Shown here piece after piece: positions 1 through 7,611 of a stretch of 7,611 nt of DNA (the first letter of the stretch is position 1; every line of letters starts with the position of its first letter). The notes below the pieces were generated by a model that saw only the letters and a program-made list of their open reading frames with translations, had not been told where the DNA came from and searched no databases. The position numbers and the translations under genes were made by a program. Origin of the DNA: Anaerotignum sp. (GTDB lineage: Bacteria; Bacillota; Clostridia; Lachnospirales; Anaerotignaceae); assembly GCA_017560955.1 (NCBI GenBank), contig JAFZDV010000259.1, positions 1 to 7,611 on the forward strand. The letters are read 5' to 3'.

Positions 1-177
1 AATCGTGCGGAAGAAGCATTGGGATTTCCTCTGACAGAAAAACAGATCGGCGGCAAAGGCGGCGGTGGCAGCATTTTGACGGCGGAAGCACTTGCGTTCT
101 TGGAAAAATATGAGGCATATCGGGAGGCTTGTTATGAAGCAAACAGAAAATTATATATGGAATTCTTTTCTGAATAG
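1..177 (+). CDS. ModE-type winged-helix regulator, C-terminal fragment (5' end outside window)
   Basis: The frame is open from the first base and ends at TAG 175-177, giving 59 residues. They contain LGFPLTEKQIGGKGGGGS followed by ILTAEALAFLEKYEAYR. This matches the end of the ModE N-terminal DNA-binding domain, where a GGKGGGG wing is followed by LT and a long helix (E. coli ModE has ATGGKGGGGAVLT). Known ModE proteins repress molybdate uptake or regulate molybdoenzyme genes. The protein stops about 17 residues after the LEKYEAYR helix, so it lacks the C-terminal molybdate-binding (Mop/TOBE) domains of E. coli ModE. HTH-only ModE proteins are common in Clostridia, and how they sense molybdenum is less clear. 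Its last 44 bases overlap the next gene, which implies translational coupling and a shared molybdenum role. The family call is firm; the regulated genes cannot be read from this fragment. Confidence 0.85.
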   Translation, partial: NRAEEALGFPLTEKQIGGKGGGGSILTAEALAFLEKYEAYREACYEANRKLYMEFFSE

Positions 178-1222
178 CGGCAAGAAGCACCTGATTCTGA
201 CAGGTACCCACCGTGCCGGTAAAACAACGCGTTTTCAGGCGTTGTGTAATTATCTGAAAGAGGCCGGAGAGCCCTTGCCTGGTATTACGACCTATGCTGT
301 GCCCGGGAAAGAAGTGCTTCTAAAAGACAATGAAAACGGACAGGAAATGAAGATTGGGGTTTTTGATCCAGAAATGAAAGGCAGCCCCATGCGTACTGTG
401 AAAGAAGGTTTTTCTGAGCTGGGTTGTCCTGCACTTTATCGTATGGCAGAAACGAAAGGCTCCTGGGTATCTATCGATGAACTGGGTTTTCTGGAAAGCA
501 ATGAACTAAGTTTTCAGGCGGCAGTCAGAAATGTTTTTGATAAAAAAAGAGTACTTGCGGTACTAAGAAAACAGGATATCTCTTTCCTGAATGAACTGAA
601 AGAAAGAAACGATGTTTATCTGGTGGATCTGGATCAGCTGCATAGAAAAGTTGGTTGTGTGATCATGGCATCGGGTAAGAGTGTCCGTTTTGGCGACAAT
701 AAACTTTTTGCAGAACTAAACGGCAAGACATTTTTACAAAGAGCACTGGAACTGACAGAAGGTATCTTTGTGAAAAGAGTGGTGGTTACCAGAGATGCAG
801 ATGCCGCAGAGTATTGCAGAGCAAAGGATGTGGATGTGATTTTTCACGACCTTCCTTTCAGAAGTGATACTGTTCGCATAGGGACTGAGTTTATGGAAGA
901 TATGGACGGTATTGTTTTCTGTGCTTGCGACCAGCCCATGCTGCGCAGGGAAAGTCTGCTGAAACTGAGAAATGCCTTTTCTTTTGAACAGAAGGAACTT
1001 CTTCGTCTTGCAGTGAAAGAGAAGCAGGGAATGCCTGCGTTATTTGGGAAAAAATATATAGATGAACTGAAAAATCTTCCGGAAGGAAAGGGTGGTTCTT
1101 ATATCCTGAAAAAGCATGAAAATGAATTGGAATGTATTCAGGTGGAAGATCCATTGGAACTTTTTGATGTAGATACAAAGGAAGATTTGGAAATATTAAA
1201 GAAAAGTGCCATTTTTTTATAA
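134..1222 (+). CDS. Fusion protein: THEP1-like P-loop NTPase + MobA/MocA-type nucleotidyltransferase (probable molybdenum cofactor maturation)
   Basis: I place the start at ATG 134 because GGGAGG (122-127) sits six bases ahead of it. An in-frame ATG at 92 has no such site and would add 14 unlikely residues. The protein has 362 residues. Residues 18-170 look like a THEP1-type nucleoside-triphosphatase: Walker A GTHRAGKTT (24-32) and a Walker B-like WVSIDELGFLE (111-121). Residues 173-362 look like a MobA-like NTP transferase: VIMASGKSVRFGDNK (176-190) is the nucleotide-binding loop, CDQPM (265-269) carries the metal-binding Asp, GKGGSYILKKH (318-328) follows, and FDVDTKEDLE (344-353) is the typical C-terminal motif. 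The transferase half is closest in layout to MocA, which attaches CMP to molybdopterin for xanthine-dehydrogenase-type enzymes. The ModE-like gene directly upstream supports a molybdenum role. The nucleotide used (CTP or GTP) and the job of the NTPase half are not shown. Both halves appear intact. Confidence 0.82.
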   Translation: MKQTENYIWNSFLNSGKKHLILTGTHRAGKTTRFQALCNYLKEAGEPLPGITTYAVPGKEVLLKDNENGQEMKIGVFDPEMKGSPMRTVKEGFSELGCPALYRMAETKGSWVSIDELGFLESNELSFQAAVRNVFDKKRVLAVLRKQDISFLNELKERNDVYLVDLDQLHRKVGCVIMASGKSVRFGDNKLFAELNGKTFLQRALELTEGIFVKRVVVTRDADAAEYCRAKDVDVIFHDLPFRSDTVRIGTEFMEDMDGIVFCACDQPMLRRESLLKLRNAFSFEQKELLRLAVKEKQGMPALFGKKYIDELKNLPEGKGGSYILKKHENELECIQVEDPLELFDVDTKEDLEILKKSAIFL

Positions 1223-1994: not shown

Positions 1995-2023
1995 TTGACA
2001 AGATTATTTGACTGTGTTAAAAA
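1995..2023 (+). promoter_or_regulatory. Probable sigma-A type promoter of the ECF sigma factor gene
   Basis: A perfect TTGACA (1995-2000) is followed after 17 bases by TAAAAA (2018-2023), which is preceded by TG at 2015-2016 as in an extended -10. The start point would be near 2030, leaving about 25 bases of leader with the ribosome binding site. A second pairing, TTGACT (2008-2013) with TAGAAA (2031-2036), has the same spacing but would start transcription inside the ribosome binding site, so I prefer the first. An AGTCAA/TTGACT inverted repeat (1971-1976 and 2008-2013) flanks the -35 box and could bind a regulator. Confidence 0.55.
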
Positions 2024-2054: not shown

Positions 2055-2561
2055 TTGAAAATTTTTGAAAGCCTTTACCGGGAATATTATCAGAAAGTAT
2101 ACGCTTTTTTGTACCGTCTTTGTGCCGATGGGGATCTGGCGGAGGATCTGACTCAGGAAACTTTCCTGCAGGCCTATAAATCCTTCCATAAATTCCGTGG
2201 TGAATGTGAGGTATTCACCTGGCTGGCGGCCATAGGGAAGCATACATATTTCAAATATCTGAAAAAGAAAAAACTTCATCTGGATGCGGCCAATCTGGAA
2301 CTGGTAGCCCAAAGTTATATGAAGGGAGATGTCAGTCCGGAGGAACATGTCCACAAGAAAGATGTTGAAGGCGCGGTGCGAAAAGTGGTGGATACCATTC
2401 CCAAAAAATATCGGGATGTTGTTCTGCTGCGTATCTATGCGGAACTTCCCTTTTCTCAGATTGCACAGATTCTGAAAATCAGTGAAAGTTCTGCAAAGGT
2501 TATTTATTTCAGAGCGAAGAAAATGCTGATGGAGGTGTTAAAAGATGAGCTGGAAATGTGA
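2055..2561 (+). CDS. ECF-family RNA polymerase sigma factor
   Basis: The protein directs RNA polymerase to a small set of promoters, normally when released from its anti-sigma factor. It has 168 residues, the usual ECF length, with sigma region 2 at about 4-72 (core-binding motif DLTQETFLQAY at 31-41, then FRGECEVFTWLAAIGKH) and region 4 at about 106-163 (DTIPKKYRDVVLLRIYAELPF with a helix-turn-helix over 133-154). Region 3 is absent, as expected for the group. The start is a TTG, chosen because AAAGGGGTGA (2041-2050) is correctly placed and no in-frame ATG exists before residue 89. The gene overlaps the anti-sigma gene by 17 bases, so the two are translationally coupled. The subgroup cannot be fixed by eye, though its features are compatible with SigW/YlaC-like factors. 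The fatty acid operon downstream is a candidate target. Confidence 0.93.
   Translation: MKIFESLYREYYQKVYAFLYRLCADGDLAEDLTQETFLQAYKSFHKFRGECEVFTWLAAIGKHTYFKYLKKKKLHLDAANLELVAQSYMKGDVSPEEHVHKKDVEGAVRKVVDTIPKKYRDVVLLRIYAELPFSQIAQILKISESSAKVIYFRAKKMLMEVLKDELEM
2531..2537 (+). promoter_or_regulatory. Ribosome binding site of the anti-sigma gene, inside the sigma gene
   Basis: GGAGGTG lies within the sigma factor coding sequence, seven bases ahead of the anti-sigma ATG at 2545. It fixes that start and shows that the two products are made from one coupled transcript. Confidence 0.85.
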
Positions 2562-2850
2562 TGTGGTGACAGATCTTGCGCCCCTGTATCATGACGGCGT
2601 GGCAAGCAAAGCCAGCAGAAAACTGGTAAAAGAACACTTGAGAGAATGCCCCGAATGCAGGGCTTATTATAAAAAATATAGTCCTGTTGAGGGCATCAAA
2701 ATGGATATGCCCATTTCTGATGCAGAGGATTTTGTGCTGCTGGCAAAGCAGATGCGCAGACGAAGACTGCTGCTTTGGGGTGGTTTTCTGTCCTATGTGA
2801 GTGCAACAGTGGTTGCTCTGGTACTGTATTGGGTGAAGAAAAACAGATAA
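2545..2850 (+). CDS. Membrane-anchored zinc-binding anti-sigma factor (zf-HC2/ZAS domain)
   Basis: The 101-residue product should hold the preceding sigma factor inactive at the membrane. The cytoplasmic half carries the ZAS zinc motif C5, H31, C35, C38, with HLRECPEC as the HxxxCxxC core. A run of four arginines (71-74) then precedes one hydrophobic helix at about 75-97. The arginines predict that the N terminus is inside the cell. Only the four residues KKNR follow the helix, so there is no extracytoplasmic sensor domain and little room for the site-1 protease cleavage seen with RsiW. A signal could act through the membrane itself, a partner protein or the zinc-thiol centre; that is inference. 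Overlap with the sigma gene and the family motif make the pairing firm. Confidence 0.9.
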   Translation: MSWKCDVVTDLAPLYHDGVASKASRKLVKEHLRECPECRAYYKKYSPVEGIKMDMPISDAEDFVLLAKQMRRRRLLLWGGFLSYVSATVVALVLYWVKKNR

Positions 2851-2886
2851 TTTTTGAAAAAAATAAAAAAATTTTAAAAAATTTTT
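2851..2886. other. Very AT-rich A/T-tract spacer
   Basis: This stretch after the anti-sigma stop is almost only runs of A and T (only one G). I see no gene in it. Such tracts can curve DNA, but I cannot test this by eye. Confidence 0.4.
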
Positions 2887-2936
2887 AAATGCTAAAAATG
2901 TTGAGAACTCAACGATTTTTGGCATTTTTTTGTTTT
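2887..2936 (+). terminator. Strong intrinsic terminator between the sigma/anti-sigma pair and the fab operon
   Basis: AAATGC, T, AAAAAT and GTTGAG (2887-2905) pair with CTCAAC, ATTTTT, G and GCATTT (2908-2927), with one T-G wobble and one bulged G at 2914. That gives about 19 paired positions around a tiny loop (GAAC if the innermost pair opens). It is followed by TTTT-G-TTTT (2928-2936). The fab operon should therefore need its own promoter. Confidence 0.88.
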
Positions 2937-2976
2937 CGGTAAAAATTTTTTCGGAAAATTCGTGTAACCTTTTCGG
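2933..2976 (+). repeat. Three direct copies of TTTTCGG ahead of fabH
   Basis: TTTTCGG occurs at 2933-2939, 2948-2954 and 2970-2976, with start-to-start spacings of 15 and 22 bases. The last copy lies inside the predicted fabH promoter, next to its -35 element. They could be regulator sites or a product of local base composition. Confidence 0.5.
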
Positions 2977-2992
2977 AATTCTGAGGTACTAA
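2963..2992 (+). promoter_or_regulatory. Candidate ECF-type promoter of the fab operon
   Basis: TGTAAC (2963-2968), followed by CTTTT, is one base from the SigW-type -35 TGAAAC. After exactly 16 bases comes GGTA (2985-2988), one base from the -10 CGTA. Transcription would start near 2996, giving a leader of about 55 bases. I find no good sigma-A promoter between the terminator and fabH. AGGTACTAA (2984-2992) also resembles half of the FapR operator as I remember it from B. subtilis (TTAGTACCT in reverse), but the other half is missing. Confidence 0.5.
2973..2984. promoter_or_regulatory. Short palindrome in the fab promoter spacer (possible operator)
   Basis: TCGGAATTCTGA is a 12-base inverted repeat with a single mismatched pair (TCnGAATTCnGA). 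It sits between the predicted -35 and -10 elements, where a bound repressor would block polymerase. It contains an EcoRI-type GAATTC core, so a chance palindrome is possible. Confidence 0.35.
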
Positions 2993-3010
2993 GTTATCGA
3001 AACCAAAAAT

Positions 3011-3047
3011 TGGGAGAAAAAAAGTTCTCCTAGGAAGATGGAGGAAC
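3011..3047 (+). promoter_or_regulatory. fabH leader with two mutually exclusive hairpins, one covering the ribosome binding site
   Basis: TGGGAGAA (3011-3018) can pair with TTCTCCTA (3025-3032), eight pairs including one G-U, loop of six. The same GTTCTCC (3024-3030) can instead pair with GGAGGAAC (3040-3047) with one bulged G. That second fold buries the fabH ribosome binding site GGAGG (3040-3044), seven bases ahead of the ATG. This has the shape of a translational switch, but no known riboswitch or leader family is recognised. Confidence 0.4.
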
Positions 3048-3051
3048 AATA

Positions 3052-4008
3052 ATGAGCTTTCGTGTATTGGGTACAGGCAGCTATGCACCGCCCAAAGTAG
3101 TGACCAATGACGACTTGTCACAATTTTTAGATACCAGCGATGATTGGATCAGACAGAGGGTGGGTGTAAAGGAACGTCATTTCAGCGTGAACGAAACAGC
3201 AGCAGATATGGCTGCAAAGGCAGCAAGCACTGCTATCGAAAACAGCGGCGTGAATCCCGAAGAAATTGACCTCATTCTGCTGGCAACTATTTCAGGCGAA
3301 AGTCAGGTGCCTTCTACCGCATGCATGGTACAGGGACTTCTTGGGCTGAACTGTATGGCACTGGAAGTGAATGCGGCCTGTTCTGCTTTTGATTTTGCAC
3401 TGGAAACAGTGGCAGGTTACTTTGCCAGAGGAAAGGTGAGAAAAGCACTGGTAATCGGTGCAGAAAGAATGAGCCGTATCCTTGATTTTACGGATAGAGG
3501 CACAGCAGTTATTTTCGGCGACGGCGCAGGGGCGCTGGTTCTGGAAGCAGGTGAAAACTATATTGACTCTGTTTTTTATGTGCAGGGTGATGATGAAGTC
3601 ATTGGATGTGGGCTGCCCGTGGGCAATTCCCCTTATTACGAAAGAGGCCAGGAAAAGAAACCACTGGCATATATGGATGGTCAGGCCACATTTAAATTTG
3701 CAGTTAATGCTATTGTAAATGATTGCAACGAACTGGTGAGAAGAAATGGGCTGACATACGATGATATCGCTTATATCGTGCCTCATCAGGCAAATATGCG
3801 TATCATCGATTTCGCCAGCAGAAAGCTGAAAGTTCCTATGGAAAAATTCAGCGTAAACATCGACAGATTTGGCAATACATCTTCCGCAAGCATTCCTATG
3901 ATGCTGGATGAATTAAACAGAGCAGGGAAATTGAAGCGTGGAGATTTATTATTACTGCCGGCCTTTGGCGGCGGTCTGGCAAGCGCATGCTGCTTGCTGA
4001 AATGGTAA
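3052..4008 (+). CDS. fabH: 3-oxoacyl-ACP synthase III (KASIII), initiates fatty acid synthesis
   Basis: FabH condenses an acyl-CoA primer with malonyl-ACP to start each fatty acid chain, so it influences chain branching and overall flux. The 318-residue product has the full Cys-His-Asn triad: C110 in VNAACSAF, H245 in PHQAN and N275 in DRFGNTSSAS. W32 and R36 (DWIRQRVG) match the CoA-binding residues of the E. coli enzyme, and FGDGAGALVLE (155-165) is the usual thiolase-fold motif. It looks complete and active. It is the first gene of the operon, following a terminator and a candidate ECF promoter, with GGAGG seven bases ahead of ATG. Primer preference (acetyl or branched) cannot be read reliably from sequence alone. 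Confidence 0.97.
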   Translation: MSFRVLGTGSYAPPKVVTNDDLSQFLDTSDDWIRQRVGVKERHFSVNETAADMAAKAASTAIENSGVNPEEIDLILLATISGESQVPSTACMVQGLLGLNCMALEVNAACSAFDFALETVAGYFARGKVRKALVIGAERMSRILDFTDRGTAVIFGDGAGALVLEAGENYIDSVFYVQGDDEVIGCGLPVGNSPYYERGQEKKPLAYMDGQATFKFAVNAIVNDCNELVRRNGLTYDDIAYIVPHQANMRIIDFASRKLKVPMEKFSVNIDRFGNTSSASIPMMLDELNRAGKLKRGDLLLLPAFGGGLASACCLLKW

Positions 4009-4045: not shown

Positions 4046-4270
4046 ATGGTATTCGAAAAAATCGCAGCACTGCTGGCAGAAAAACTGGAATGTGAAGCAA
4101 CAGAAATCAAAATGGAAACAGAATTCAGCGCACTGGGCATTGACTCTCTGGATGTTATGGAACTTCTGATGACTCTGGAAGAAGAATTCGGCACAGAAAT
4201 CGAAATGGGCGAAAACAAGGTAAATACAGTTGCTGAACTGACAGCGCTGATTGAAGCAAAACTGGCTTAA
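4046..4270 (+). CDS. acpP: Acyl carrier protein
   Basis: This small acidic protein carries growing acyl chains on a phosphopantetheine arm for all the other Fab enzymes. It has 74 residues, normal for the family. The attachment site is S34 in GIDSLDVMEL, with the expected acidic helix II after it (LMTLEEEFGTEI), which is the docking surface for partners. AGGAG lies ten bases ahead of the ATG. The gene is set apart by gaps of 37 and 21 bases while the later genes overlap, and it has its own strong ribosome binding sequence. That fits the higher output usually needed for ACP. Nothing is missing or unusual. Confidence 0.97.
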   Translation: MVFEKIAALLAEKLECEATEIKMETEFSALGIDSLDVMELLMTLEEEFGTEIEMGENKVNTVAELTALIEAKLA

Positions 4271-4291: not shown

Positions 4292-5242
4292 ATGATCGTT
4301 TCACCGATTTGTGAGATGCTCGGCATTGAATATCCCATTTTCCAGGGCGGCATGGCATGGATCGCAGACAGCAGACTGGCAGCAGCTGTTTCTAATGGCG
4401 GTGGTTTGGGTATTATTTCTGCTATGAATGCAGGCGGCGAATATCTGAGAGAACAGATCAGGATCGCAAGAGAACTGACAGACAAACCTTTTGGCGTGAA
4501 TATCATGCTGATGAGCCCCCATGTGGAAGAAGTGGCAAAAATCGTTGCAGAGGAAAAAGTAGCGGTCGTGACAACAGGCGCAGGCATTCCAACAAAATAC
4601 ATTCCCATGTGGAAAGAAGCAGGAATCAGGGTGATTCCCGTAGCAGCTTCTGTGGCGGCAGCAAAAATGATGGCACGTGCAGGCGCAGATGCTGTCATTG
4701 CGGAAGGCGGCGAATCGGGCGGTCATATCGGCGAAATGTCCACAATGCCGCTGGTGCCTCAGGTGATAGATGCGGTAGATATTCCCGTACTGGCGGCTGG
4801 TGGCATCGGCGATGGCAGAGGGATCGCGGCGGCATTCATGCTGGGCGCAGTTGGTGTGCAGATGGGCACGCGTTTCCTTTTGGCGGAAGAATGCGGCGTA
4901 CACCAGAATTACAAGGACATGGTCCTGAAAGCAACAGACATTTCCACAACAGCTACAGGCAGACGTTTTGGCGGCAGTACCTGTCGTGTTCTGAAGAATC
5001 AGTTTGCCCGTAACTTCCTGAAACTGGAGTATGAACCGGAAACTACTGCGGAGATGGTTGACCAGTTGGGGATAGGTGCCCTGAGAAAAGCGGCTGTGGA
5101 AGGCGATACAAAAGAAGGCTGTTTCATGGCAGGTCAGATTTCCGGCATGGTGAAGAAAGCACAGCCCGCAGCGGAAATGATCCGTGAAATCGCAGAAGAA
5201 GCGGAAGAATTACTGAAAGGAGCAGCAAAATGGGTAAAATAG
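4292..5242 (+). CDS. fabK: Enoyl-ACP reductase II, FMN-dependent
   Basis: FabK performs the last reduction of each elongation cycle, converting trans-2-enoyl-ACP to acyl-ACP with NAD(P)H and bound FMN. The 316-residue protein is a nitronate-monooxygenase-type TIM barrel: PIFQGGMAWIAD (15-26), SNGGGLGIIS (34-43), the AEGGESGGHIG loop (137-147) with catalytic H145, the phosphate-binding AAGGIGDGRG (168-177) and GVQMGTRFL (188-196). It is distinguished from other family members by its place between acpP and fabD. FabK enzymes are known to resist triclosan, which targets FabI. No fabI is visible here. AAGGAGG (4277-4283) precedes the ATG, and the end overlaps fabD by 13 bases. Confidence 0.95.
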   Translation: MIVSPICEMLGIEYPIFQGGMAWIADSRLAAAVSNGGGLGIISAMNAGGEYLREQIRIARELTDKPFGVNIMLMSPHVEEVAKIVAEEKVAVVTTGAGIPTKYIPMWKEAGIRVIPVAASVAAAKMMARAGADAVIAEGGESGGHIGEMSTMPLVPQVIDAVDIPVLAAGGIGDGRGIAAAFMLGAVGVQMGTRFLLAEECGVHQNYKDMVLKATDISTTATGRRFGGSTCRVLKNQFARNFLKLEYEPETTAEMVDQLGIGALRKAAVEGDTKEGCFMAGQISGMVKKAQPAAEMIREIAEEAEELLKGAAKWVK

Positions 5243-6144
5243 CATTTGTTTTTTCCGGTCAGGGTGCCCAGAAGGCTGGCATGGGCAAGGCTTTTTATGA
5301 AGCCAATGAAACAGTTAAAACCTTGTTTGATAGTGCAGAAGCCTTGAGAGAAGGCACGCTGAAACAGTGCTTCGAAGGCACAGCGGAAGAATTGAAAGAA
5401 ACACAGAATACACAGCCCTGTCTGTATCTGGCAGATCTGGCGGCAGCAAGTGCTGTTTCTGAAGCAGGTATCACGCCAGATGGCGTGGCAGGCTTCTCCC
5501 TTGGAGAAATTCCTGCTCTTGCGTTTGCCGGAGCGTGCAGTCATCTGGATGGTTTTCAGCTGGCGATGAAACGCGGCGAAGTGATGGCGAAAGCGGCGGC
5601 AGAACATCCTGCACACATGCTGGCAGTCATGAAACTGGAGAATGAAAAAATCGAAGAAATCTGTAAGCAATTCAGACAGGTTTATCCTGTGAATTATAAT
5701 GCACCTGGTCAACTGGTGGTTGCAGGTGCAAAAGAAGAAATGGATGACTTCAACAAAGCCATCCGTGAAGCAGGTGGCAGAGGCATGCCTGTGGCTGTTG
5801 GCGGCGGTTTCCATTCCCCCTTCATGGATGAAGCAAGTAAAGAATTTGCGGAAGTGGCAAAGAATTTCGAACTGAAGCAGCCTGAAATCCTTGTTTACTC
5901 AAACTATACAACAGAACCTTATGGTGAAAATGTGCTGGAACTGATGAGAAATCAGATCAACCATAGCCTGCGCTGGCAGGAAAGCATCGAACGAATGGCA
6001 GCAGATGGCTTTGACACATTCATTGAGGTTGGCGTTGGTGATACACTGAAAAAACTCATCAAACGCATCCTGCCTGATGCAAGGGTCTACAGCGTTTCCA
6101 ATATGGAAGAAGTACAGAAAGTGAAGGAGGAACTGGGGTGCTGA
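5230..6144 (+). CDS. fabD: Malonyl-CoA:ACP transacylase
   Basis: FabD moves malonyl groups from CoA to ACP, supplying the two-carbon units for elongation. The 304-residue product starts with FVFSGQGAQ (7-15). The nucleophile is S90 in GFSLGE, the malonyl-binding arginine is probably R115 in MKRGE, and the active-site histidine is H195 in GGGFHSPFM. Near the C terminus, FIEVGVGDTLKKLIKRI is the standard family motif. The nucleophile elbow has Phe where most homologues have His (GHSLGE), a modest departure that need not impair activity. The ATG lies inside the end of fabK and is served by AAAGGAG (5216-5222). The gene overlaps fabG by seven bases, so fabK-fabD-fabG should be translated as a coupled set. 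Confidence 0.96.
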   Translation: MGKIAFVFSGQGAQKAGMGKAFYEANETVKTLFDSAEALREGTLKQCFEGTAEELKETQNTQPCLYLADLAAASAVSEAGITPDGVAGFSLGEIPALAFAGACSHLDGFQLAMKRGEVMAKAAAEHPAHMLAVMKLENEKIEEICKQFRQVYPVNYNAPGQLVVAGAKEEMDDFNKAIREAGGRGMPVAVGGGFHSPFMDEASKEFAEVAKNFELKQPEILVYSNYTTEPYGENVLELMRNQINHSLRWQESIERMAADGFDTFIEVGVGDTLKKLIKRILPDARVYSVSNMEEVQKVKEELGC

Positions 6145-6869
6145 AAGGAAAAACAGCAGTGGTGACTGGCGGTTCTCGCGGGATCGGTAAAGCCATCTGC
6201 CTGAAATTTGCAGAAAATGGTGCGGACATTGCGTTCCTGTATGCAGGCAACACAGTGAAAGCAGAAGAAACTTTAAAAGAATTAGAAAAACTGGGTGTGA
6301 GAGCCAAAGCATACCAGTGTAATGTAGCCGATGCCGATGCAGTGGCGGCAGTTGTAAAAGAAATTGTAACAGACTTTGGTAGTATTCAGATCCTGGTGAA
6401 CAATGCAGGTATCACAAAGGATAAACTGGTGCCTATGATGAAAGCAGCTGATTTTGATGCCGTTGTAGATACCAATCTGAAAGGCACATTTTACATGATC
6501 AAAGGAGTATATCCTCTCTTCCTGAAACAGAAAGGCGGTAAGATCATCAACATCAGTTCTGTTTCCGGTCTGATGGGTAACTCCGGTCAGGCGAACTATT
6601 CTGCATCCAAGGCTGGTGTGGTAGGCCTGACAAAATCTGTGGCGAAGGAACTGGCTGGCAGAGGGATTTGCTGTAATGCCATTGCACCCGGTTTTATTGC
6701 CACAGAAATGACAGAAAATCTGGAAAATAATGCATTAAAAGATGCGATTCCTATGAAACGCTTTGGCGAGGCGGATGAAGTAGCAAAACTGGCGCTGTTT
6801 CTGGCGTCGGAACATTCTGACTATATTACAGGTGAGATCATCAGAATTGATGGCGGTCTGGCCTGCTAA
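6138..6869 (+). CDS. fabG: 3-oxoacyl-ACP reductase
   Basis: FabG reduces 3-oxoacyl-ACP to 3-hydroxyacyl-ACP with NADPH. The 243-residue protein is a classical short-chain dehydrogenase: cofactor loop TGGSRGIG (10-17), NNAG (88-91), N113, S141 in NISSVSG, and Y154/K158 in YSASK, completing the Asn-Ser-Tyr-Lys tetrad. IAPGFIATEMT follows, and the end ITGEIIRIDGGLAC is the standard FabG C terminus. The start is GTG at 6138, fixed by AAGGAGG (6124-6130) seven bases upstream and by LKGKTAVVTGG beginning at once. Its start overlaps the fabD stop region. SDR enzymes are a large family, but the operon position makes FabG nearly certain. Confidence 0.97.
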   Translation: MLKGKTAVVTGGSRGIGKAICLKFAENGADIAFLYAGNTVKAEETLKELEKLGVRAKAYQCNVADADAVAAVVKEIVTDFGSIQILVNNAGITKDKLVPMMKAADFDAVVDTNLKGTFYMIKGVYPLFLKQKGGKIINISSVSGLMGNSGQANYSASKAGVVGLTKSVAKELAGRGICCNAIAPGFIATEMTENLENNALKDAIPMKRFGEADEVAKLALFLASEHSDYITGEIIRIDGGLAC

Positions 6870-6880
6870 GAGGTGACAAG

Positions 6881-7611
6881 ATGAAACGAGTAGTAGTAAC
6901 AGGAATCGGCGCGGTAACGCCCGTAGGCAACAATGTGCTTGATTTCTGGGAATCATTGAAAAACGGAAAAAACGGTATTGGTCCAATTACAAGATATGAC
7001 GCCAGTGAAAGCAAATACAAACTGGCAGCAGAAGTAAAGGACTTTGACCCGACAACATATATGGATAAAATGGCGGCGAAAAAAGTTGACCGCTTTACAC
7101 AGTTTGCAATGTGTGCAGCAGGTGAGGCGATGGCAGACAGTAAACTGGAAGGTAATATCGAAAAAGAGGAACTGGCAGTATATTTTGGCAGTGGTATTGG
7201 CGGATTTGAAACCCTTATGGAAGGCCAGAATGCGTTGGCGACGAAGGGGGAAAGACGAGTATCCCCTCTTCTGATCCCTAAAATGATCGATAACATTGCA
7301 GCAGGCAACATTGCGATCCGTTATCAGGCGATGAACGCCTGTGTGGCAGTTTCCACTGCATGTGCCACAGGCACAACAGCCATTGGCGAAGGCTACAGGG
7401 CTATCCTGCACGGATATACAACTGCGGCAATCTGCGGCGGCAGTGAAGCAGCCATCGTTCCTCTGACTGTAGCGGGCTTTGGTGCCTGCATGGCGTTGAA
7501 TCCTTCCGAAGATTCTGATGCGGCATCTTTGCCCTTTGACAAACGCAGAGGCGGTTTTGTTATGGGCGAAGGCGCAGGTGCGGTGATTCTGGAGGAATAT
7601 GAACATGCAAA
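6881..7611 (+). CDS. fabF: 3-oxoacyl-ACP synthase II (KASII), N-terminal part; gene runs off the window
   Basis: FabF carries out the elongation condensations, adding two carbons from malonyl-ACP. The open frame gives 243 residues before the window ends, against about 410 for the family. It begins MKRVVVTGIGAVTPVGNN, has YFGSGIGGFETL (101-112) and the catalytic cysteine C161 in VSTACATG, followed by CGGSEAAI and the RRGGFVMGEGAGAVILEE stretch. The two catalytic histidines would lie beyond the edge. AGAGGTGA (6869-6876) overlaps the last base of the fabG stop and leads into ATG 6881, with 11 bases between the genes. In related operons accB, fabZ and acc genes usually follow, but that is not visible here. 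Confidence 0.96.
   Translation, partial: MKRVVVTGIGAVTPVGNNVLDFWESLKNGKNGIGPITRYDASESKYKLAAEVKDFDPTTYMDKMAAKKVDRFTQFAMCAAGEAMADSKLEGNIEKEELAVYFGSGIGGFETLMEGQNALATKGERRVSPLLIPKMIDNIAAGNIAIRYQAMNACVAVSTACATGTTAIGEGYRAILHGYTTAAICGGSEAAIVPLTVAGFGACMALNPSEDSDAASLPFDKRRGGFVMGEGAGAVILEEYEHA

Follow-up and report, generated by a model that had tools for sequence, protein, structure and literature searches.

Accounts of fatty-acid synthesis in Firmicutes usually place it under the control of a repressor, either the transcriptional repressor FapR or FabT. A literature search by title and opening lines of the abstract, with most subscription journals outside its reach, returned no fab operon of this phylum with an extracytoplasmic function (ECF) sigma factor dedicated to it. 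FapR of Bacillus exerts global control of lipid synthesis (PMC5052256) and is the key regulator in B. subtilis, where SigW, an ECF sigma factor with a broad regulon, shifts the balance between fabHA and fabF from a promoter inside fabHA (PMC8144471, PMC3498285). In Pseudomonas aeruginosa, overexpression of SigX raises fatty-acid enzymes and also changes other proteins, and the ECF factor linked to fabH3 in the predicted operon fabH3-PA14_21550-PA14_21560 did not activate fatty-acid genes (PMC3875570), so that linkage alone is weak evidence for regulation.

The window analyzed here, a stretch of 7,611 nucleotides, is a complete contig from an incomplete genome (67.7% complete) of Anaerotignum sp., with named relatives that include Anaerotignum neopropionicum and A. 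lactatifermentans; the locus is present in the strains DSM 3847 of the former and DSM 14214 of the latter. Its genes all lie on the + strand, in the order NTPase/MobA-like fusion, xpt, ECF sigma factor, zf-HC2 anti-sigma factor, fabH-acpP-fabK-fabD-fabG and the start of fabF, with the following features:

1995..2023, + strand: TTGACA-N17-TAAAAA, picked out by eye; a possible but weak SigA-type promoter for the sigma gene
2055..2561, + strand: ECF sigma factor gene, TTG start, 168 aa; Pfam Sigma70_r2 (8e-15) and Sigma70_r4_2 (1.5e-10)
2545..2850, + strand: anti-sigma gene, 101 aa; Pfam zf-HC2 (2.2e-10)
2889..2934, + strand: hairpin and U-run resembling an intrinsic terminator; RNA fold -14.8 kcal/mol, z -5.06
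2963..2992, + strand: predicted ECF promoter; -35 TGTAAC (2963-2968), TTTT, -10 core ACTAA (2988-2992)
3040..3044, + strand: GGAGG, likely ribosome-binding site of fabH, from the sequence
3052..4008, + strand: fabH; NCBIfam TIGR00747 over cut-off
4046..4270, + strand: acpP; Pfam PP-binding
4292..5242, + strand: fabK (enoyl-ACP reductase II); TIGR03151 at 445.3 bits, slightly below the cut-off of 453.1
5230..6144, + strand: fabD; Pfam Acyl_transf_1
6138..6869, + strand: fabG; Pfam adh_short_C2
6881..7609, + strand: fabF, truncated by the contig end; Pfam ketoacyl-synt

The first-pass annotation had placed an ECF sigma/anti-sigma pair directly ahead of the fab operon, and this holds, with both frames and their Pfam domains in place and fabH starting at 3052. 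Beyond the contig end, the loci of named relatives extend the operon: accB-fabZ-accC-accD-accA follow fabF on the same strand in 12 of the 15 loci with fabF, the other 3 ending at a contig edge, and a site before fabH may thus command the whole pathway. Near the other end of the window, the frame at 128-1222 (+ strand) fuses an NTPase_1 domain to a MobA-like nucleotidyltransferase domain; its best NCBIfam model, molybdenum cofactor cytidylyltransferase, scored below cut-off, and the short coding end before it resembles a ModE-type regulator. Rfam returned no RNA family over threshold in the window, and a known RNA family was rejected on this ground.

The sigma and anti-sigma genes overlap by 17 nt. 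In sequence the sigma factor belongs to the ECF class (group 4), matching Sigma70 regions 2 and 4 only, with no match to region 3, at the class size of about 170 aa, and its profile matched SigW and other ECF structures. Identity with SigW was rejected, as the scores (NF007223, 76.3 bits vs. a cut-off of 209; TIGR02948, 68.3 vs. 243.1) fell far short; the SigM subfamily model TIGR02950 gave 116.2 bits and did not reach its cut-off of 147.95. The anti-sigma is of the ZAS type by sequence, in that its zf-HC2 domain carries HX3CX2C plus an upstream Cys, and the four putative zinc ligands (C5, H31, C35, C38) are invariant in 19 sequences. Hydropathy predicts one transmembrane helix, with residues 76-94 as the best stretch and 7 residues beyond; this stretch is kept in 19/19 anti-sigmas, each with 5-20 residues after the helix. 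Since so little sequence follows the predicted membrane helix, we favor sensing through this helix or the lipids around it rather than through a ligand outside the cell. By profile the anti-sigma matched RsiW of PDB 5wuq (E 2.9e-5); its structure model (pLDDT 74.4, pTM 0.38) has a long C-terminal helix, and a Foldseek search with it put RslA and RsiW in the top rows at non-significant E-values of 0.2 or more. In genome G004 (loci L023 and L107, the latter from Clostridia bacterium UC5.1-1D10), all three frames, for sigma, anti-sigma and fabH, look interrupted, possibly by sequencing error.

Between the terminator-like hairpin and fabH, the window carries TGTAACCTTTT-N14-ACTAA at 2963-2992, which in its spacing form reads TGTAAC-N19-ACTAA. 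Among the 23 family genomes with sigma and this type of fabH, ACTAA lies 18 nt after TGTAAC in 10 upstream regions and 19 nt after it in 13, usually with GG just before ACTAA. Alignment of 16 of these 23 regions gave 15 invariant columns, which are exactly TGTAAC, TTTT and ACTAA, with none invariant outside the boxes. In an enlarged set of 29 upstream regions (the 23 family fabH regions, five from other families and that of G054), 28 contained the strict form TGTAAC-N18/19-ACTAA and all 29 a relaxed form, vs. 0 of 8,700 dinucleotide shuffles (300 per region), so that the motif is not due to chance. The first-pass annotation had proposed TGTAAC-N16-GGTA as an ECF-like promoter; its TGTAAC box stands, but the conserved -10 is ACTAA, and N16-GGTA fits some genomes only. 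A scan of the window for SigA-type promoters gave two weak sites (9 of 12) between 2854 and 2946, and over the 29 regions the best SigA scores (6-9 of 12) were close to those of shuffled sequence (means 7.0-8.5, from 40 shuffles per region), indicating no clear SigA promoter before fabH. This agrees with the earlier view that the only convincing promoter for the fab operon is ECF-like. A terminator after the sigma pair had likewise been called and matches the terminator-like hairpin and U-run (z -5.06), even if a consensus terminator scan did not list this hairpin. In both genomes folded (window and G346), such a hairpin parts the sigma pair from the fab genes, which likely depend on a promoter of their own there.

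The motif follows the sigma factor across the family. A sigma orthologue is present in 24 of 58 family genomes (E 2.4e-55 or better), and in 22 of them, besides the window genome, fabH is 62-90% identical to that of the window (in G004 as a partial match); TGTAAC-N18/19-ACTAA lies upstream of fabH in 23/23. In the remaining sigma-bearing genome, G054, a fabH search gave no match at E 1e-20 and the motif precedes acpP. Genome-wide, the pattern TGTAACYTT-N15/16-ACTAA matched exactly once in each sigma-bearing assembly (24/24), 23 times before fabH and once before acpP; the window assembly is incomplete, and the fabH site is its sole strict-pattern match. Three of the 34 sigma-less genomes (G018, G030, G032) have one stray strict match each; two of these fall within open frames read from the opposite strand, and the third lies outside any frame of more than 100 codons. 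None adjoins fabH, and no fab or acc match was found within the surrounding 3 kb. All told, the strict pattern gave 27 matches in 58 genomes, 24 of them at fab genes, vs. 41 for a reversed-pattern control and 3 stray matches for an out-of-register gap (N9-13). As the reversed control outnumbers the real pattern, it is the location of the matches and not their number that carries the case. A looser pattern with GG, run on the 24 sigma-bearing genomes, misses G025 and G054, which lack GG there, and adds one match within an open frame in G005 (reversed control, 8).

Linkage of sigma and fab genes was examined within the family and beyond it. In 19 of the 23 family genomes, 425-748 nt separate the end of the sigma gene from the fabH downstream of it; in the other four it is displaced, by 11 kb in G017 and 56 kb in G020, and to another contig in G013 and G015. 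In all four the motif is still at fabH and is absent upstream of the sigma gene, which argues that the motif goes with the fab operon, as a target, and is no by-product of the control region of sigma. Searches at the level of order (295 genomes), class (391) and phylum (398) added five genomes outside the family: G202 at order level, G675, G346 and G670 at class level and G707 at phylum level. Each of the five has sigma beside a fabK-type fab operon, in arrangements that are divergent (G202, G675, G670), upstream and codirectional (G346) or convergent at the 3' end of the operon (G707). Four of the five (G675, G346, G670 and G707) have the strict motif before fabH, in G675 without TTTT; in the sigma-acpP intergenic region of G202, TGTAAC-N17-CTCTAAC points toward the sigma gene and a variant, CGTAAC-N17-CTCTAAC, toward acpP. 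Conservation of both linkage and motif in relatives, a check that the first-pass annotation had set itself, thus came out in its favor (19/23 and 23/23 in the family, plus the five genomes of other families). From 33 class-level genomes with a sigma match at E up to 1e-35 we opened ten regions: the three best matches outside the family are fab-linked, and of the next eight by E-value the seven opened (all except G344) showed no fab or acc match in the 12-20 kb fetched. In a tree of 56 sigma factors, a branch supported at 98/97 sets the 27 fab-linked ones (the window sigma and 26 others) apart from the rest; L023, L143, L150 and L155 (internal stops), duplicates, class-level hits without a locus and G707 were omitted, L140 was retained, with X at its single internal stop, and G670 was entered as L158, which is cut by a contig end.

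An autoregulated promoter is common among ECF factors and is not required of them. In the 220 nt 5' of the sigma gene, the fab-type motif is absent from 24/24 family genomes, suggesting that sigma is probably made from other promoters there. In G202 a motif site faces the sigma gene, and in G054 the sigma gene closes the motif-bearing fab operon at its 3' end; ECF autoregulation is thus visible only in G202 and perhaps, via the operon, in G054, and the arrangement in these two genomes suggests positive feedback.

Sigma-less members of the family present another picture. A MarR-family gene, for which the best NCBIfam model is FabT (NF050133, 187.5 bits, below the cut-off of 200), has an orthologue in 21 of 34 sigma-less genomes vs. 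0 of 24 sigma-bearing ones, and in 20 of these 21 a distance of 26-343 nt separates it from the fabH downstream, the remaining genome being without a fabH match. The Fisher value for this distribution (5e-7) is only descriptive, since the genomes are kin and not independent. Neither sigma nor the FabT-like gene was found in 13 of the 34. In agreement with the earlier remark that no fabT gene adjoins fabH in the window, no FabT-like gene was found there. FapR did not reach its cut-off in any of the 58 genomes of the family; one genome of the control set did exceed it. In G016, of the same genus as the sigma-bearing G017, neither a sigma orthologue nor the motif was found; its fab cluster (L121, G016:C41:8000-19000) also differs, with a fabH of about 40% identity and a second weak fabK-like match.

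From these data we consider it likely that the neighboring sigma factor is a dedicated activator of the fab operon, acting through the single site at fabH, with the anti-sigma holding it inactive at the membrane, though sigma may also read weaker sites elsewhere. Free sigma would direct RNA polymerase to TGTAAC-N19-ACTAA before fabH; the anti-sigma would bind sigma at the membrane in an inactive state for as long as no additional membrane lipid is called for; a signal from lipids or the membrane, the least certain part of the scheme, would relieve this hold; and the fab genes, in relatives with the acc genes, would form one transcript. That sigma reads the fab site and that the anti-sigma inhibits sigma are both points that we infer from sequence. 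The suggestion of the first-pass annotation that a linked sigma factor may control the whole initiating operon gains support from the conserved linkage and motif, as a proposal about regulation.

Other readings of the same site were weighed against this one. The site may be an ECF promoter read mainly by another ECF factor, with the neighboring pair a passenger or a minor contributor. Some paralogous ECF genes (L026, L028, L031) have upstream TGTAAC boxes, but where the -10 would be expected the sequence is not ACTAA, and a more distant ECF sigma of G435 (37% identical) has the whole TGTAAC-ACTAA core 5' of its own gene (L164:7019-7048); cross-recognition is therefore possible, and promoters of this type are not confined to the fab-linked group. 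The P. aeruginosa ECF without effect on fatty-acid genes (PMC3875570) points the same way. At the paralogues, the differing sequences suggest that it is the -10 that separates the ECFs. We nonetheless judge this reading improbable, as sigma and the fab motif occur together in 24/24 genomes while neither sigma nor a fab-operon motif was found in the other 34, which in such cases as G018 and G055 still have other ECFs, and as the association recurs in other families with different gene orders. Even less probable, in our view, is that the conserved sequence is a repressor or activator binding site over an unrecognized housekeeping promoter. The length of the conserved block would allow this, weak SigA-like sites are possible, and ACTAA resembles one half of a FapR operator; against it are two fixed boxes 18-19 nt apart with poor self-complementarity (at best 14 of 28 positions in the window motif), the absence of any FapR over cut-off in 58 genomes (on which a FapR operator was rejected) and of a FabT-like match in 24, and the fact that the site accompanies the sigma factor across lineages. 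That the motif reflects chance or shared ancestry of the upstream region alone we find scarcely credible: 22 of the 24 sigma-bearing family genomes fall within three genera and are not independent, but invariant columns are confined to the boxes, the shuffles gave no motif, and the motif or a close variant recurs in five non-family genomes of differing gene order.

A further question concerns what the anti-sigma may respond to if the sigma factor does activate the fab operon. It may be a redox or metal switch working through its zinc site, which would put the fab genes under oxidative state rather than the membrane. Redox-sensing zinc anti-sigmas carry the same kind of ligands, here invariant in all 19 sequences, and the weak fold matches were to RslA and RsiW; on the other hand, anti-sigmas with no role in redox sensing carry the same ligands, and a transmembrane stretch kept in 19/19 would be unneeded. 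We regard this variant as unlikely. More doubtful than likely, too, is a bolder extension of membrane sensing, in which the pair would constitute a third master control of bacterial fatty-acid synthesis: a single-target ECF, essential as the main route to FASII and ACC transcription, with an anti-sigma that lacks an extracytoplasmic domain and reads the bilayer via one helix, the two forming a direct loop from membrane to lipid synthesis that replaced FabT.

Returning to dedicated activation by the neighboring sigma, the closest parallel is SigW of B. subtilis, in that both involve an ECF sigma with a membrane-bound anti-sigma and act on fatty-acid genes, here by prediction, and the anti-sigma here matches RsiW by sequence and weakly by fold. 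The comparison with SigW made by the first-pass annotation survives as analogy only, given scores far below the SigW models, a different -10 core and a site that precedes the whole operon. With that site as the sole strict match per assembly and no FapR over cut-off, we infer a switch that is neither SigW nor a counterpart of its promoter within B. subtilis fabHA. P. aeruginosa offers a likeness, by description and not by sequence, in the effect of SigX on fatty-acid enzymes and in the ECF/anti-sigma pair of the predicted fabH3 operon. FapR of Bacillus is alike in controlling lipid synthesis and unlike in being a repressor, and none of the 58 family genomes has one that exceeds the cut-off. 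FabT is alike in position, the FabT-like gene lying just before fabH in family genomes that have it, and unlike in being a MarR-type repressor, not a sigma factor, with no match in sigma-bearing genomes of the family.

The place held by a FabT-like repressor gene in many relatives is taken here by the sigma pair. If an ECF pair does own the operon, lipid synthesis in these bacteria would depend on an alternative sigma factor and be tied directly to the membrane. With one predicted target per genome, the pair would offer an uncomplicated setting in which to ask what is sensed by an anti-sigma that lacks an outer domain, and it may bear on the response of these bacteria to inhibitors of the operon's enoyl reductase, FabK.
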